NCBI GenBank assembly: GCA_001796355.1
Contig: MGMG01000026.1
Span: forward strand, 1-33,299
Direction of reading: 5' to 3'
Source of the DNA: Chloroflexi bacterium GWB2_54_36
Lineage (GTDB): Bacteria > Chloroflexota > Anaerolineae > Anaerolineales > Anaerolineaceae
Length of the DNA stretch: 33,299 bases
Shown here: in pieces, positions 4,177-14,343 of the stretch
Layout of the letters: each line of letters starts with the position of its first letter
How positions within the stretch are numbered: the first letter of the stretch is position 1
Program-made: the position numbers and the translations under genes
Notes under the pieces: model-generated
Told to the model about the DNA's origin: nothing
Seen by the model: the letters and a program-made list of their open reading frames with translations, nothing else
Databases searched by the model: none

Positions 4177-4860
4177 GTGGCGCTGGATATCCCCCGCATC
4201 GCTGCCATCTGCTTCGATGTGGATGGCACGTTGAGCGACACCGATGAGCTGTGGGTGCATCGGTTGCAGCGCATTTTAATCCCCCTGCGCTTTATGTTGC
4301 CGGGCAAACAAACCCGGCGCACAGCGCGTTGGCTGGTAATGGGACTGGAGACGCCGGGCAACTGGGGTTACGAACTGCTCGACCGCCTGCGTCTGGACGA
4401 TGAAGCCGGGCGGTTGATCAATGCCGTGGCTCGCCGCAAGGATGAAAAAGCAAAACCCCTGCCGGTTATCCCTGGCATCCCGCGCATGGTAGCGACCCTG
4501 CAGGAACGCTACCCCCTGGCGATCGTCAGCGCCCGCGGCGAGCGGACCACCCTGCAGTTTCTTGAACAGCACAACCTGGGTACCTCGTTTGGGGCGGTTG
4601 CTACTGCCCTGACCAGCGCTCACACCAAACCGTTCCCTGACCCCGTTTATTGGGCGGCCGGTCAGTTGGGGGTGCCGGCTGAACGCTGTTTAATGGTCGG
4701 GGATACCACGGTGGATATTCGCGCAGGCAAGGCGGCTGGCGCGCAGACCGTGGGCGTACTATGCGGTTTTGGTTCGGAGCGCGAACTGCGCCGGGCGGGC
4801 GCCGACTTGATCCTGCCAACCACCGCCCAGTTGGATGAAATTTTACTGTCAGTCCATTAA
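4177..4860 (+). CDS. HAD-superfamily phosphatase (phosphoglycolate phosphatase-like)
   Basis: A cytoplasmic HAD hydrolase of 227 aa. Motif I is CFDVDGTLSD (nucleophile Asp at residue 13 and acid Asp at 15). A helical cap follows, then motif II IVSARGE, the motif III lysine near TSAHTKPFPDPVYW, and motif IV VGDTTVDIRAGKAAGA. Together these form the complete catalytic set of a Mg-dependent phosphatase of the Gph/PGMB type. The substrate cannot be assigned. The start is GTG, one base after the metallopeptidase stop, with no room for its own promoter, which implies translational coupling with the upstream gene. Confidence 0.85.
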   Translation: MALDIPRIAAICFDVDGTLSDTDELWVHRLQRILIPLRFMLPGKQTRRTARWLVMGLETPGNWGYELLDRLRLDDEAGRLINAVARRKDEKAKPLPVIPGIPRMVATLQERYPLAIVSARGERTTLQFLEQHNLGTSFGAVATALTSAHTKPFPDPVYWAAGQLGVPAERCLMVGDTTVDIRAGKAAGAQTVGVLCGFGSERELRRAGADLILPTTAQLDEILLSVH

Positions 4861-4890: not shown

Positions 4891-5778
4891 TTGAAACGGT
4901 CTAACCTTGGCGTCATCGTGAAAATCCTTCTGGCGGTGATCTTCTGGGGCGCTTCATTCGTTGGAACCAAGATCGCGCTGCGCGATGCCCAACCCGTAAC
5001 GGTTGTCTGGGTGCGTTTTGGCATTGGCGTGTTGGTATTGGGCGCTGCGGTTATCCGGCGCCGGCAATTCAAGCTGCCGCCGGCCCGCGACCTGGGCTAT
5101 TTTGCCTTGATCGGCGCGCTGGGCATCACCTGGCACCAGTGGCTGCAATCTACCGGCCTGTTAACAGCGCAAGCCACCACTTCGGCCTGGATTGTGGCTT
5201 CGACGCCTATCTTTATGGCGCTGCTGGGCTGGATATTCTTCAAGGAGACGCTGAGCCTGCTGCGGGTGGCGGGTATATTCATCGCCGCCTTCGGGGTGCT
5301 GATGGTGGTGACCAAAGGCGACCTGCGATCCCTGTCACTGGGTCAATTTGGCACCCGCGGCGATCTGTTGATGCTGATCAGTTCGCCGAACTGGGCAGTT
5401 TTCTCTGCCTTATCGCGCAATGGACTGCGGCGCTACCCGGCGGCGTTGATGATGCTGTATGTCATGGCGTTCGGCTGGCTGTTCACCACCGGGCTGTTTG
5501 TCACCGGCCCGGGCTTTACTGACCTGGCCAACCTGACGGTCAACGGCTGGGCGGCGGTGGCTTATCTGGGCATCGCCTGTTCCGGTCTGGCTTACATTTT
5601 CTGGTACGACGCACTCCAGGTGTTGCCATCGGCGCATGTTGGCGTTTTCCTTTATATCGAACCGTTGGTAACCGTGGTGGTGGCTGGATTTTTATTGGCC
5701 GAACCAGTTTACCTGGCGGCCCTGGCCGGCGGTGCGATTATTCTGCTTGGAGTATGGCTGGTAAATCGACGGGCGTAG
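4891..5778 (+). CDS. EamA/DMT-family membrane transporter
   Basis: An integral membrane protein of 295 aa with about ten hydrophobic helices arranged as two EamA repeats. The first repeat includes IFWGASFVGTKIALRDAQPV near the start and ALLGWIFFKETLSLLRVAGI. The second includes YLGIACSGLAYIFWYDALQV and IEPLVTVVVAGFLLAEPV. Family members export metabolites or amino acids, and the substrate here is unknown. The start is TTG, with an AGAGG ribosome site about 7 nt upstream. An ATG five bases upstream is out of frame and hits a stop at once. The 3' end overlaps the end of holB, which converges from the other strand, by 41 bp. Confidence 0.88.
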   Translation: MKRSNLGVIVKILLAVIFWGASFVGTKIALRDAQPVTVVWVRFGIGVLVLGAAVIRRRQFKLPPARDLGYFALIGALGITWHQWLQSTGLLTAQATTSAWIVASTPIFMALLGWIFFKETLSLLRVAGIFIAAFGVLMVVTKGDLRSLSLGQFGTRGDLLMLISSPNWAVFSALSRNGLRRYPAALMMLYVMAFGWLFTTGLFVTGPGFTDLANLTVNGWAAVAYLGIACSGLAYIFWYDALQVLPSAHVGVFLYIEPLVTVVVAGFLLAEPVYLAALAGGAIILLGVWLVNRRA

Positions 5779-8684: not shown

Positions 8685-8756
8685 TCCTCGTTAGCTCAAT
8701 GGCAGAGCGGGCGGCTGTTAACCGCTAGGTTCGAGGTTCGAGTCCTCGACGAGGAG
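8685..8756 (+). tRNA. tRNA-Asn (anticodon GTT)
   Basis: A complete cloverleaf of 72 nt. The acceptor arm TCCTCGT pairs with ACGAGGA and the discriminator base is G. The D stem is GCTC/GAGC. The anticodon stem GGCGG/CCGCT encloses the loop CTGTTAA with anticodon GTT at 8717-8719. The T arm is CGAGG-TTCGAGT-CCTCG. No CCA is encoded. The 3' half from 8734 is duplicated at 14297-14321, which marks the attachment site of the element to the right. Confidence 0.95.
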
Positions 8757-8758
8757 CT
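8734..8758 (+). repeat. attL: left attachment repeat inside tRNA-Asn
   Basis: A 25-nt sequence beginning AGGTTCGAGTCCTCGACGAG and covering the T arm and 3' acceptor strand of tRNA-Asn. It is identical to 14297-14321. Integration into this sequence leaves the tRNA gene intact. The base before (G versus T) and after (T versus A) differ between the copies, so the repeat is exactly delimited. Confidence 0.92.
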
Positions 8759-8771
8759 TTTTGCCAAAAAT

Positions 8772-8802: not shown

Positions 8803-8847
8803 AAATATTCAAATATAATAATCTTGCTGTGCATTTTGCACGGTTGT

Positions 8848-8933
8848 CGAGAGGTGGCCGAGTGGCTTAAGGCGCCATATTGATAATATGGTTAGACTAC
8901 AAGGTCTCGCGGGTTCGAATCCCGCCCTCTAAA
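8848..8933 (+). tRNA. Ser-type class II tRNA-like gene with GAT (Ile) anticodon, acceptor end degraded
   Basis: The body is that of a bacterial tRNA-Ser. The D region is GGCCGAGTGGCTTAAGGC, there is a long variable arm with its own stem (AGAC-TACAAG-GTCT), and the T arm GCGGG-TTCGAAT-CCCGC is perfect. The anticodon stem CCATA/TATGG holds the 7-nt loop TTGATAA, giving anticodon GAT (8882-8884), which reads Ile codons rather than Ser. In the acceptor stem only AGAGG/CCTCT pairs: positions 1-72 (C/A) and 2-71 (G/A) do not, and base 73 is A rather than the G common in tRNA-Ser. It lies inside the integrated element. It may be a pseudo-tRNA or a non-canonical tRNA. Confidence 0.6.
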
Positions 8934-8940
8934 ACACAAT

Positions 8941-8982
8941 AAGATGACATGGACTTATCACTCATGTTGTCTTATTTTTTTT
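8941..8982 (+). terminator. Intrinsic terminator after the tRNA-like gene
   Basis: AAGATGACATG (8941-8951) pairs with CATGTTGTCTT (8963-8973) through 11 bp including two G-T wobbles, followed by ATTTTTTTT. It overlaps the last codons of the integrase, which comes from the other strand. It probably ends the tRNA-like transcript. The reverse direction lacks a good T-tract. Confidence 0.65.
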
Positions 8983-10023
8983 CCAGGCTTGAAATTCGAG
9001 AAATTCTCGATATTCAGCCGAGAAATTTTGATCAAATTCCGGATTCCCAAACATTGAATCGATCCGATTTCTTTTTTCGTTGTCATCAATATTTGAGTAA
9101 AACTGGTCCGTAATCCCCGTGGTCGAATGCATCACATTTTGACTAACCGCCTTGTAATCTTCCTGGGTCCTTGAATGCGCTTGCCCATAATGAACGTGCC
9201 CATGGCGGAACTTATGGGGGGAGTGATAAGTTAACCCATTCTTCTTCATCCAGGTAGCCAAATTCTTTCGAGCCAGATGAACCCGGTTGTCATTCGGGAA
9301 AATATTATTTACATCAATCTCGCCAGTTAATGGAGATAATGGAGCGAACCAAAAACCATTTTCAGGGAGAACTTTCCTAACTTCTTGATCCCATTCCTTG
9401 ACGACCTGGAGTAATTCTGGAATTGGAAAAAGAACAGTCTTCGCACTCTTGTTATTCTTGGTATGGACACCCAGGTTAGGATACTGGTACACAAACCGAT
9501 TTTCTAAATCTATCGCTTTGATCGGCAGCGTAACGAATGCGCCGATTCGAATTCCAGAAAGATACATGAATATCGCAGCAGCCCGAATTCTTCGCTCTAA
9601 AACGCTCTCAGCAGGCGCACGAGCAATTTTTAATATCTCCTCTACGTTAACATATTCTTTTGATTGTGGAACCTCAGACAATCGCCTTACTTTAATTTTG
9701 TCGATCCACGCCAGCTTAAGAGATCGATATTCTTTGTCGTGCTCAATTAGCCACATGAAGAAACGCCTTGCTGCAGCAAGTATCTTTTTTATATGAGTAG
9801 GTGATAATGGTTCGTCTTTACCATCCAACCGAGCCAATCGAATATATTCAGGGAAGGTTGGAGATATAGAAGGAGCTTTTGAAAAAGGTGTACTATCCGC
9901 CCATTCCAGAAGATAACGGAGATACGTTTCCTCGACCTTCAAAGAAGATTTAGAAATTTGATCGACATGCAATCGATCATTAAGATATACCTTCCATAAT
10001 CTCCAATTTGCTTTATTGATCAT
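8962..10023 (-). CDS. Tyrosine recombinase / phage-type integrase
   Basis: A site-specific recombinase of 353 aa. Residues 1-100 form the SAM-like core-binding domain (EETYLRYLLEWADSTPF, THIKKILAAARRFFMWLIE). The catalytic domain has Arg159 in YLSGIRIGAF, a probable Lys in the TKNNKSAKTVLFP hairpin, His270-x-x-Arg273 in SPHKFRHGHVH, His299 in NVMHSTTGITDQFYS and the nucleophile Tyr309. The full R-K-H-R-H-Y set is therefore present and the protein should be active. The 3' end faces the tRNA, the usual arrangement for integrases that target tRNA genes. The start overlaps the upstream excisionase-like gene by 11 bp, so they are co-translated. Confidence 0.93.
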   Translation of the reverse strand: MINKANWRLWKVYLNDRLHVDQISKSSLKVEETYLRYLLEWADSTPFSKAPSISPTFPEYIRLARLDGKDEPLSPTHIKKILAAARRFFMWLIEHDKEYRSLKLAWIDKIKVRRLSEVPQSKEYVNVEEILKIARAPAESVLERRIRAAAIFMYLSGIRIGAFVTLPIKAIDLENRFVYQYPNLGVHTKNNKSAKTVLFPIPELLQVVKEWDQEVRKVLPENGFWFAPLSPLTGEIDVNNIFPNDNRVHLARKNLATWMKKNGLTYHSPHKFRHGHVHYGQAHSRTQEDYKAVSQNVMHSTTGITDQFYSNIDDNEKRNRIDSMFGNPEFDQNFSAEYREFLEFQAWKKNKTT

Positions 10024-10619: not shown

Positions 10620-11201
10620 CTAAATAATCTCAACTGGCGAATCTTTCCACCAGATTGGATACTGTTTAGGGACGTACAATTTTTTGGCGCGATATACTTT
10701 AATATCGCCTTCTTTGATTGCGTACTTAGTGATATATCGAATAGCGGAGTAGCTATTTATGATCTTCCTTGTGTGTGCAAATCCAGCCCATTTATTCCAT
10801 AAGGAATGGGTCAGAGAATAATCAAAGGGTCGATCAATCAAAACATGAAAATGAAGAACATCGCGTTCCTGGTATTCTGTGCACCTGACATAAGAGAAAT
10901 ACGAATGCTTAACGATCCTGGTGTATCTCTCTCCAAATAAATCGCGATTTAATACCTGGATAAGCCGATTGAATTTACTTAATGCTGGATCAAATGCAAT
11001 CGGGTCACGGAATGTTAAGGTTAATAATGTCGACCAATCCGCAACTCCTAATAGCCAATCTGTATATTCAAGATGCAGGAGAGCCTTAGACGTGTTTGAA
11101 TCCCAGGCATCGAAAGGGCAATCATAGTTTTCAAATAAGCTCTCGAATTCTCTTTTTTTCTTTTGATGAAAATCCTCATGAGGTTCGGAAACAAAGGTCA
11201 T
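10620..11201 (-). CDS. HUH-superfamily replication initiator (rolling-circle Rep)
   Basis: A 193-aa protein with the three rolling-circle motifs in order. Motif 1 is LLTLTFRDP (59-67). Motif 2, the metal-binding HUH, is VLHFHVLIDRPF (His117 and His119), preceded by the acidic CTEYQERD. Motif 3 is YITKYAIKEGD, with catalytic Tyr156 (or Tyr160) and Lys159. The layout resembles Rep proteins of microviruses, filamentous phages and small plasmids more than conjugative relaxases, and no helicase domain follows. It would nick the element to start rolling-circle replication after excision. The ATG directly follows the TAA of the ribbon-helix-helix gene, so translation is coupled. Confidence 0.85.
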   Translation of the reverse strand: MTFVSEPHEDFHQKKKREFESLFENYDCPFDAWDSNTSKALLHLEYTDWLLGVADWSTLLTLTFRDPIAFDPALSKFNRLIQVLNRDLFGERYTRIVKHSYFSYVRCTEYQERDVLHFHVLIDRPFDYSLTHSLWNKWAGFAHTRKIINSYSAIRYITKYAIKEGDIKVYRAKKLYVPKQYPIWWKDSPVEII

Positions 11202-11715: not shown

Positions 11716-12108
11716 ATGTTTCGAGACACTTTACTCGATGAATTAACTGGAAATAACACACGTCCCAATAAATTTACAATTGGGATGGGTAAGTTGATTA
11801 GGGCTGCTCGCGAAGAGACCGGATATAGTCAAAGGGAGTTGGCGGAATTAATTTATCGCCGCCAGGCTGCTCTCTCGGACATTGAAAATGGCAAAATGGA
11901 ACCAGATTCATCAACGTTATTATTGTTATCTCATTATCTTGAGAAACCTATTGGGTATTTTTTTCCACCACCGTGGAAACCAAGTATTGACACGTCTCTA
12001 AGTGATTTAGAAGATGAAGCATTACTACTAATAAAAAAACTCGATGAAGATGATTTAAGGAGATTATTAGCCCAAATTCGTGCATTGGTTACTCTTAAGC
12101 CGAAATGA
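11716..12108 (+). CDS. XRE-family transcriptional regulator
   Basis: A 130-aa cytoplasmic DNA-binding protein. The Cro/CI-type helix-turn-helix spans about residues 25-80 (KLIRAAREETGYSQRELAEL, RRQAALSDIENGKMEPDSSTLLLLSHYLEKPIGYFF). An acidic helical C-terminus (DLEDEALLLIKKLDEDDLRRLLAQIRALV) may mediate dimerisation. The ATG at 11716 has no ribosome site, and Met23 at 11782 is an alternative. It heads a two-gene unit with the 272-aa unknown protein 9 nt downstream, and is divergent from the rep operon, so it may act as the element's main switch. Confidence 0.85.
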   Translation: MFRDTLLDELTGNNTRPNKFTIGMGKLIRAAREETGYSQRELAELIYRRQAALSDIENGKMEPDSSTLLLLSHYLEKPIGYFFPPPWKPSIDTSLSDLEDEALLLIKKLDEDDLRRLLAQIRALVTLKPK

Positions 12109-12936: not shown

Positions 12937-13084
12937 TATATTGAGATTATGTATGACCCAGGCCTAAAGACTTATTCCTCCTGGAGTAAAATTTCCCTTG
13001 CATAAGATTCTGAATATGAAACCTAAGGCAGGAAATTCACAACCAAATCTAATCTAACATTTGCAAAAAAAGTATTGGAGACAT

Positions 13085-13534
13085 ATGCCAACAGATAAAC
13101 AAATACTTGGTCATAAAGGAGAATGGCTCGTTATTAAGAGCTGCATTTGCCCTAAGTGTAAAAAAGAAAAAACGTTAAAGCTTTTACGCCAAAATTTTAA
13201 GTGCGCTGACATAATATGCGACTTTTGTGGTTATTTAGCCCAAGTCAAATCCAAAACATCAAAATCCATTGATAAGCTACCCAATACTATTATTGGAGCT
13301 GCTTGGGGAGTACAAAAAGACAGACTAGAGTCTGGTATCTTTATGCCTTTGTTTATTGTCCTTTATAAATCAGACACTGAATACGGAATATATTACCTAT
13401 CAGCGGATCTTCAAGTACCAGGTATGTTTATTCCCAGGAATCCTTTACGTGATACTGCTCAGAGACATGGTTGGCAAGGATTTATTTATGATATAACGAA
13501 ATTAAGACCAGGTTCTATTGTCAGATTAATATAA
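13085..13534 (+). CDS. Stand-alone DpnI-type restriction endonuclease domain
   Basis: The start at 13085 is set by GGAG 4 nt upstream. The 149-aa product matches the N-terminal catalytic domain of DpnI. It has a zinc ribbon (CPKC at 22-25 and CDFC at 45-48), the PD-(D/E)xK core with Asp42 in CADIICDFC and Lys55 in AQVKSK, and the conserved tail PRNPLRDTAQRHGWQGFIYDI. The glutamate expected two residues before the lysine is Gln53, giving D-QxK as in some Mrr-type nucleases. DpnI is about 254 aa, and its C-terminal winged-helix domain, which reads methylated GATC, is absent here. It probably cleaves DNA, but its specificity is unknown. It lies between the unknown protein and the SieB-like gene. 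Confidence 0.8.
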   Translation: MPTDKQILGHKGEWLVIKSCICPKCKKEKTLKLLRQNFKCADIICDFCGYLAQVKSKTSKSIDKLPNTIIGAAWGVQKDRLESGIFMPLFIVLYKSDTEYGIYYLSADLQVPGMFIPRNPLRDTAQRHGWQGFIYDITKLRPGSIVRLI

Positions 13535-13560
13535 GTGAATTTGCCTACGGGCAAGATTTT

Positions 13561-13578
13561 AATTCCATTCCACTAGGT
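13561..13578 (+). repeat. attR-like 18-nt repeat, internal copy
   Basis: AATTCCATTCCACTAGGT matches 14283-14300 at 17 of 18 positions. The second copy overlaps the start of the right attachment repeat. The two copies flank the SieB-like gene, about 720 bp apart. Confidence 0.55.
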
Positions 13579-13684
13579 GGCGATAATATTGCTTATAAAA
13601 ACCTTAAGAAATAGTCCTCACCAGAAAAGTAAAGCAAACTACCGTTTTGTTAAATCAGTATTATGAATGCAGAAAGAAGGCAGT

Positions 13685-14224
13685 ATGGATTTTAGCAAAT
13701 TACTCGATTGGATAAAACTATCACCAAAATATTTAATTCCAATCTCATTAGTTAGTGGATTATTGGTGTTTTCTACTGAAAACTTGCTATTGAAATTTGG
13801 TCTGAATGAGTTTGTCAATAAAGCAAGACCCATAATAGGTGTTATATTTTTGTTGTCAACAGCATTAATTTTGTCGGATATCCTTTATTCGATCTTTTCA
13901 CTGACGAACAAAAGCATTAGTCATATAATCACTACCCAAAGACTATATTCCAGATTAAAAAAGCTCACCCCAGAAGAAAAAGATATTCTTTATGGGTACC
14001 TTTATTACAACAGTCGTACACAACACTTTTCCATAACGGATGGGAGGTTGGTGGAATTAATAGCTTTTAATCTAATATATAAAGCAAGCAATATCGGCGA
14101 TTTAAATAATTGGCCTTACAATATACAACCATGGGCATGGGATTATTTACAAAAACACAAATCCGAAATATTTACAGAAGAAGACATCAAACGTTTTGGA
14201 AGCAAATACGGAATTGATCATTAA
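13685..14224 (+). CDS. SieB-like superinfection exclusion membrane protein
   Basis: ATG at 13685 is preferred because GAAGG lies 4 nt upstream; an in-frame ATG at 13667 lacks such a site. The 179-aa product has two membrane helices near the N-terminus (about 14-34 and 50-68) with the family-like opening WIKLSPKYLIPISLVSGLL. A cytoplasmic domain follows with LTPEEKDILYGYL and NIQPWAWDYLQKH, both close to my recollection of the SieB family (phage P22 and lambda SieB). Those proteins abort infection by certain superinfecting phages. No prophage structural genes accompany it. It is the last gene before the right attachment site and is flanked by an 18-nt repeat. Confidence 0.8.
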   Translation: MDFSKLLDWIKLSPKYLIPISLVSGLLVFSTENLLLKFGLNEFVNKARPIIGVIFLLSTALILSDILYSIFSLTNKSISHIITTQRLYSRLKKLTPEEKDILYGYLYYNSRTQHFSITDGRLVELIAFNLIYKASNIGDLNNWPYNIQPWAWDYLQKHKSEIFTEEDIKRFGSKYGIDH

Positions 14225-14282: not shown

Positions 14283-14300
14283 AATTCCATTCCGCTAGGT
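14283..14300 (+). repeat. 18-nt repeat at the right attachment site
   Basis: AATTCCATTCCGCTAGGT is the partner of 13561-13578. Its last four bases overlap the right 25-bp attachment repeat. CCGCTAGGT also matches the tRNA-Asn anticodon-stem end at 8722-8730. Confidence 0.55.
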
Positions 14301-14321
14301 TCGAGTCCTCGACGAGGAGCT
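14297..14321 (+). repeat. attR: right attachment repeat
   Basis: An exact 25-nt copy of the 3' end of tRNA-Asn (8734-8758). It marks the right boundary of the element; GC-rich host-like DNA resumes just beyond. Similarity extends leftwards: 14292-14321 equals tRNA positions 8722-8758 if one unit of the tandem 7-mer GGTTCGA in the tRNA is removed. Confidence 0.92.
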
Positions 14322-14343
14322 ATTTTATTTAAACCCACCTGCT

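Follow-up and report, generated by a model that had tools for sequence, protein, structure and literature searches.

Several described groups of tRNAs come close to the one considered here. Allo-tRNAs share with it a serine-like body, a long variable arm and a non-serine anticodon; their anticodons are many, and their 12-bp branch is divided as 8/4 or 9/3 (PMC7609411). Some have destabilised stems beside transposon genes, and the destabilised allo-tRNA(UAU) of Acidobacteria, found near transposon genes and inactive in E. coli, carries an isoleucine anticodon too (PMC7609411). The dual-identity tRNA-Pro of Streptomyces likewise occurs naturally and combines a body and an anticodon that belong to different amino acids (PMC10365949, PMC11415595), and mistranslating tRNAs are known from bacteria (PMC10365949). 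Phage tRNAs required for lysogeny resemble the present case in their setting, a tRNA gene beside a tyrosine integrase in an element lodged in a tRNA gene (PMC10865867). The bacterial identity determinants are G73, C72, G2-C71, R4-Y69, C11-G24 and a large variable region for serine, and A73, C4-G69, U12-A23, C29-G41 and the anticodon loop for isoleucine (PMC9976931). Insertion of serine at isoleucine codons is reported to be strongly inhibitory to cell division (Geslain 2010, cited by PMC4814463). In the literature searched, which included few subscription papers, no description of serine-bodied GAU tRNAs with open ends was found.

The window, i.e. the whole 33,299-nt stretch of DNA analysed, contains a gene that an earlier note had read as a serine-type class II tRNA with an isoleucine anticodon in a 7-nt loop. 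This assignment was confirmed. The layout is CGAGAGG-TG-GCCGAGTGGCTTAAGGC-G-CCATA-TTGATAA-TATGG-TTAGACTACAAGGTCTC-GCGGG-TTCGAAT-CCCGC-CCTCTAA-A; ARAGORN called tRNA-Ile(gat) at 8847-8935, and the D arm is of the serine type, with 19 of 20 bases identical to the host tRNA-Ser(tga). The note had also described two acceptor mispairs and A73 and had proposed scoring the gene against a tRNA model. In the acceptor CGAGAGG/CCTCTAA, C1·A72 and G2·A71 are indeed unpaired and the discriminator is A73, and the Rfam tRNA match (46 bits, E 6.6e-07) flagged as mispairs the same two outer acceptor pairs. The anticodon arm is CCATA-TTGATAA-TATGG and the T arm is GCGGG-TTCGAAT-CCCGC with a 5-bp stem, which gives a 7/5 geometry. 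Folding yielded z = -2.1 against shuffled sequences. The gene does not encode CCA, as is the case for many other tRNAs in the same genome, and the host genome also has a normal tRNA-Ile(gat).

The long variable arm is the main SerRS recognition feature, and it is retained in the window tRNA as a paired arm of 17 nt together with C11-G24 and G4-C69 (R4-Y69). The serine determinants lost are G2-C71 (now G2·A71), C72 (A72) and G73 (A73, where all three host tRNA-Ser, gct, tga and cga, have G73), and the anticodon is GAT instead of a serine anticodon. The earlier note's expectation of serine insertion at AUC/AUU codons is weakened by these losses. The isoleucine features present are G34, A35, U36, A37 and A38 of the loop TTGATAA and A73; in place of C4-G69, U12-A23 and C29-G41 the window tRNA has G4-C69, C12-G23 and A29-U41. 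The note's comparison with allo-tRNAs was not supported. The variable arm and a non-serine anticodon are there, G2-C71, C72 and G73 are absent, and the arm geometry, being neither 8/4 nor 9/3, is not that of an allo-tRNA.

The gene is a separate unit, with a TATAAT whose last base lies 29 nt before the 5' end of the tRNA and, directly downstream, a strong hairpin with a T8 run. A promoter search called no full sigma-70 promoter upstream of the tRNA. Expression of the window tRNA is thus plausible at most.

Table. Features of the window around the GAT tRNA, the acceptor-open GAT tRNAs, and serine-like bodies with other anticodons
Feature	Position	Strand	Host or context	Basis
Serine-bodied class II tRNA, GAT (isoleucine) anticodon, pairs 1-72 and 2-71 open, A73	8848..8933	+	Window	Sequence, ARAGORN, Rfam, class II tRNA extraction
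Anticodon GAT in 7-nt loop TTGATAA (loop 8880-8886)	8882..8884	+	Window	Sequence, ARAGORN
Long paired 17-nt variable arm TTAGACTACAAGGTCTC	8892..8908	+	Window	Class II tRNA extraction, folding
Candidate -10 box (TATAAT) for the tRNA, without consensus -35	8814..8819	+	Window	Sequence
Leader hairpin GTGCA-TTT-TGCAC ahead of the tRNA	8829..8841	+	Window	Sequence only
Terminator-like hairpin (about -14 kcal/mol) and T8 run, shared with the convergent end of the integrase gene	8938..8982	+	Window	Sequence, folding
tRNA-Asn(gtt), integration target, restored intact at attL	8685..8756	+	Window	ARAGORN, Rfam, repeat search
attL repeat (3' part of tRNA-Asn)	8734..8762	+	Window	Repeat search
attR repeat, 28/29 bases identical to attL	14297..14325	+	Window	Repeat search
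Tyrosine integrase of the element	8962..10023	-	Window	
Rolling-circle-type replication protein (REP_ORF2-G2P)	10620..11201	-	Window	
HTH (XRE-like) regulator	11716..12108	+	Window	
DpnI-like methyl-directed restriction enzyme	13061..13534	+	Window	
SieB-like superinfection exclusion protein	13667..14224	+	Window	
Open GAT tRNA, window			Chloroflexota host; integrative element	
Open GAT tRNA L044			Acidobacteria; locus, mobile or resident	
Open GAT tRNA L045			Bacteroidetes; locus, mobile or resident	
Open GAT tRNA L046			Gemmatimonas; locus, mobile or resident	
Open GAT tRNA L050			Schwartzia; locus, mobile or resident	
Open GAT tRNA L052			Eisenbacteria; locus, mobile or resident	
Open GAT tRNA L053/L058			Cohnella; prophage	
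Open GAT tRNA L054			Betaproteobacterium; locus, mobile or resident	
Open GAT tRNA L055/L057			Agrobacterium rosae; prophage	
Open GAT tRNAs L059, L060, L063, L089 (with identical copies of L089)			IMG/VR contigs	
Open GAT tRNAs L345, L371			Arthrobacter and Brachybacterium; plasmids	
Serine-like bodies, anticodon GTT			L102-L124, L103, L108, L120	
Serine-like bodies, anticodon GCA			L125-L222	
Serine-like bodies, anticodon CCA			L350, L363, L369	
Serine-like body, anticodon TCC			L359	
Serine-like body, anticodon TGT			L358	

The location inside a mobile element, also claimed in the earlier note, was borne out by the att repeats of a 5.6-kb element integrated in tRNA-Asn(gtt), with a GC content of 0.32-0.46 versus about 0.6. 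The GAT tRNA lies between attL and the integrase, a position that would suit a leftover of integration or a replacement for a disrupted host tRNA, as in tRNA-dependent lysogeny. An attachment-site origin was nevertheless rejected and is regarded as very improbable. The attachment site is a tRNA-Asn that is rebuilt intact, and, unlike in the lysogeny phage tRNAs, the isoleucine anticodon does not match the isotype of the target. Furthermore, the most closely related integrase (54% identity, L066) belongs to an element, likewise at a tRNA-Asn, in which no further tRNA lies between att and int, and family members are also carried by plasmids and by a Mu-like phage. Since the L066 element has no such gene, the GAT tRNA was deduced to be cargo of the element. 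The DpnI-like and SieB-like genes (13061-14224) adjoin attR and are likely phage-defence cargo of the same element.

Relatives were sought with a pattern of Ser D arm plus TGATAA loop in 84,980 GTDB genomes and IMG/VR, the pattern being relaxed afterwards, and true class II tRNAs were taken from the matches by script. TGATAA was fixed in the search patterns, which also required a GCC/GGC D stem, and the filter demanded at least 4 of 5 anticodon-stem pairs; the D-stem requirement by itself entails C12-G23 in place of U12-A23. BLAST of plasmids and phages, with no anticodon imposed, supplied additional copies, two of them acceptor-open GAT tRNAs on actinobacterial plasmids. The IMG/VR and GTDB scans and the plasmid BLAST gave 20 distinct class II GAT tRNAs. 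The earlier note had proposed checking the GAT loop and the acceptor mismatches in relatives, and the acceptor top was found to be open in 15 of these 20. The 15 come from about eight phyla, where they sit on phages, prophages and plasmids or at chromosomal loci. The tRNA is usually the only one on its carrier, and a hairpin terminator often lies behind it. A BLAST search of phages with the window tRNA found no match, strict homologs among 396 genomes of the class were limited to the window copy, and PADLOC and Pfam applied to neighbour genes gave no recurrent protein partner of the GAT tRNAs.

The near-constant break is at 2-71, which is mispaired in 14 of the 15 open GAT tRNAs (C·C in 7, G·A in 4 and G·G in 3) through differing substitutions on the 5' or 3' side. 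The remaining one, L345 from Arthrobacter, keeps G2-C71 and is open at 1-72 only. Since 2-71 is the usual break and 1-72 is mispaired in 10 of the 15 but paired in 5, mimicry of initiator tRNA, to which C1·A72 might point, was set aside. The controls covered the neighbour anticodons GNU, GCN and NAU and a class with C at position 2 (C2), the latter obtained by scanning for Ser-type D arms with any anticodon. Only 2 of 133 controls with other anticodons were open at 1-72 or 2-71, compared with 15/20 for GAT (Fisher p 9e-15, nominal since related sequences are not independent), and 2-71 was G-C in all 83 Ser(GCU) controls. In the C2 scan, in which G2 members are invisible, G71 compensated in all 34 distinct non-GAT tRNAs, while C·C stood at 2-71 in all 7 GAT tRNAs. 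A search of IMG/VR for AAT, CAT and TAT with the same body gave one match, which was not a class II tRNA.

The rest of the molecule behaves differently. Pairs 4-7 and all anticodon-stem and T-stem pairs are formed in 15/15 (within the filter on the anticodon stem given above), with compensatory changes that give as many as five kinds of pair at one position, e.g. TA, GC, AT, TG and CG at 29-41, from which the fold was deduced to be maintained. We show here from these comparisons that a rare family of predicted tRNA-like RNAs exists, mostly on mobile elements, that the predicted opening of its acceptor end is specific to GAU, and that the remainder of the predicted cloverleaf is under pairing constraint. 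In common with bacterial tRNA-Ser (GCU) the family has the D arm, the variable arm, the 7/5 geometry, R4-Y69 and C11-G24; it differs in the GAU anticodon, in the broken 2-71 pair, in the loss of C72 and G73 in about half of its members, and in A31-U39, found in 12/15 versus 2/83 for Ser(GCU) and not imposed by the first patterns. It departs from the allo-tRNAs in its 7/5 geometry, in being confined to GAU among the anticodons examined, and in a loss that singles out pairs 1-72 and 2-71.

These data bear on whether the GAT tRNAs are neutral pseudo-tRNAs, captured tRNA-Ser genes that mutated to GAT and are now decaying. The mispairs and the loss of G73 would agree with this, as would the fact that GAU is one change away from serine GCU, and one plasmid copy is decaying. 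In this copy (L372, Arthrobacter alpinus plasmid, about 4990-5085), an ortholog of L345 with 79% identity and conserved flanks, the acceptor and variable arms are lost and GAT is retained; a GAT tRNA gene can therefore be dispensable. Decay, however, would strike all arms and all anticodons, whereas the other stems are kept in 15/15 and the open end is nearly absent from the controls. When the anticodon and acceptor pairs 1-3 were masked, the nearest relative was still another open GAT tRNA in 14/15. Random decay would hardly produce this result, A31-U39 and the open-end pattern, which fit a family of shared ancestry or shared constraint. The earlier note had stated that random decay of the arms in relatives would make the gene a plain pseudo-tRNA, and L372 was the only copy of that kind. 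A decayed gene was thus abandoned as the general explanation and is considered improbable; the note was right to list a decoy or non-canonical tRNA as an option. Rather than a single damaged gene, the GAT family seems to represent a genuine class of tRNA mimic.

With the serine body kept, G2-C71 broken, the isoleucine body missing and serine-for-isoleucine insertion reportedly inhibitory, a GAU tRNA unfit for charging is the most economical reading of the sequences. As G2-C71 counts among the published determinants for bacterial SerRS, opening of 2-71 would strike serine charging, and the absent isoleucine body determinants would keep IleRS off. The RNA would then receive little or no amino acid and would put no serine at isoleucine codons, so that elements obliged to live with their host could carry a GAU tRNA and avoid a known toxic error. 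Our leading proposal, tentative and somewhat more apt to be wrong than right, is therefore worded as follows: the family would comprise GAU mimics with a serine body, whose acceptor is held open, especially at 2-71, and which are poorly or not charged and act as non-translating decoys. Less surely, the target might be a host factor that reads the anticodon loop of tRNA-Ile(GAU), such as an anticodon nuclease or a different enzyme directed against elements. That these form a dedicated, horizontally spread family of non-chargeable mimics, with which phages, plasmids and integrative elements offer an isoleucine anticodon as bait to a widespread host defence or toxin recognising tRNA-Ile(GAU), is a possibility we hold to be rather unlikely. 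If uncharged, they would be a new kind of RNA decoy on mobile elements and would point to a host factor targeting tRNA-Ile(GAU). Against the decoy proposal count L345 with its intact G2-C71, the decaying L372 and the lack of a recurrent protein partner. In addition, G73 is kept in 8/15 and CCA is encoded in several, as if the acceptor end perhaps still mattered.

Residual serylation is possible, and counts against the decoy as well, because SerRS relies chiefly on the variable arm and the GAT tRNAs retain this arm intact. The GAT tRNAs could accordingly be attenuated mistranslators, charged by SerRS via this arm and inserting serine at a low level at AUU/AUC; charging or binding to EF-Tu would be held back by the open end, and the element would gain through stress, toxicity or protein diversification. 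This is supported by the retained variable arm, C11-G24 and R4-Y69, by the bacterial mistranslating tRNAs cited at the outset, and by the existence of an intact form, three phage GAT tRNAs with full serine identity (L061/62/64, L092 and L094). It would be odd for this purpose, however, that a charging determinant is broken in 15 of 20 lineages, and any non-serine anticodon should serve, yet the open end occurs with GAT only; we therefore consider it unlikely, though not remote. The Streptomyces tRNA-Pro are reportedly charged by a ProRS and mistranslate, whereas the GAT tRNA has no synthetase gene nearby and its charging end is damaged. If charged with serine, the GAT tRNAs would be natural tRNAs rewriting isoleucine codons as serine; ARAGORN, for one, labels such genes plain tRNA-Ile.

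The serine-identity phage tRNAs themselves (L061:921-1021, L092:2985-3068 and L094:1813-1898) have G1-C72, G2-C71 and G73, and would be expected to be natural candidates for serine insertion at isoleucine codons. Two further class II GAT phage tRNAs, L088 and L101, are isoleucine-like (A73, C29-G41) with closed acceptor stems and would resemble the form expected of an isoleucine-charged class II tRNA. They weigh against the proposal that the open GAT tRNAs are true isoleucine tRNAs in a borrowed serine body, charged by IleRS via the anticodon, with the open 2-71 as a device against SerRS and a foreign body that might resist nucleases attacking the host tRNA-Ile. In favour of it, nothing is missing from the isoleucine anticodon loop, which has GAU, A37 and A38, the window copy has A73, and phages use class II bodies for Asn, Cys, Trp and Gly. 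The determinants outside the loop, however, are mostly missing from the open family (A73 2/15, C29-G41 1/15, C4-G69 0/15), and charging by IleRS is judged a distinctly doubtful account.

A few observations were made beside these. On both actinobacterial plasmids the GAT tRNA is just upstream of a serine recombinase gene (neighbourhoods at L345:3070-3918 and 4269-4856, and L371:5201-5800), and in L345 it also adjoins an AbiJ_NTD4/PDC-S32 candidate defence gene. A tRNA-like sequence at L376:555-608, with a TGATAATC loop and a GGGTTCGAATCCC T arm, matches the anticodon-arm/T-arm pattern but was rejected as a member, since the D-arm side lacks Ser character and no tRNA was called there by ARAGORN. 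Lastly, Ser-like D arms and long variable arms were found with Asn, Cys, Trp, Gly or Thr anticodons on phage contigs, many of them >100 kb. Their acceptors are closed and their discriminators mostly match the anticodon (G73 for Asn and Trp, T73 for Cys and Gly), and serine-like bodies seem to be widely reused for other amino acids in phages.
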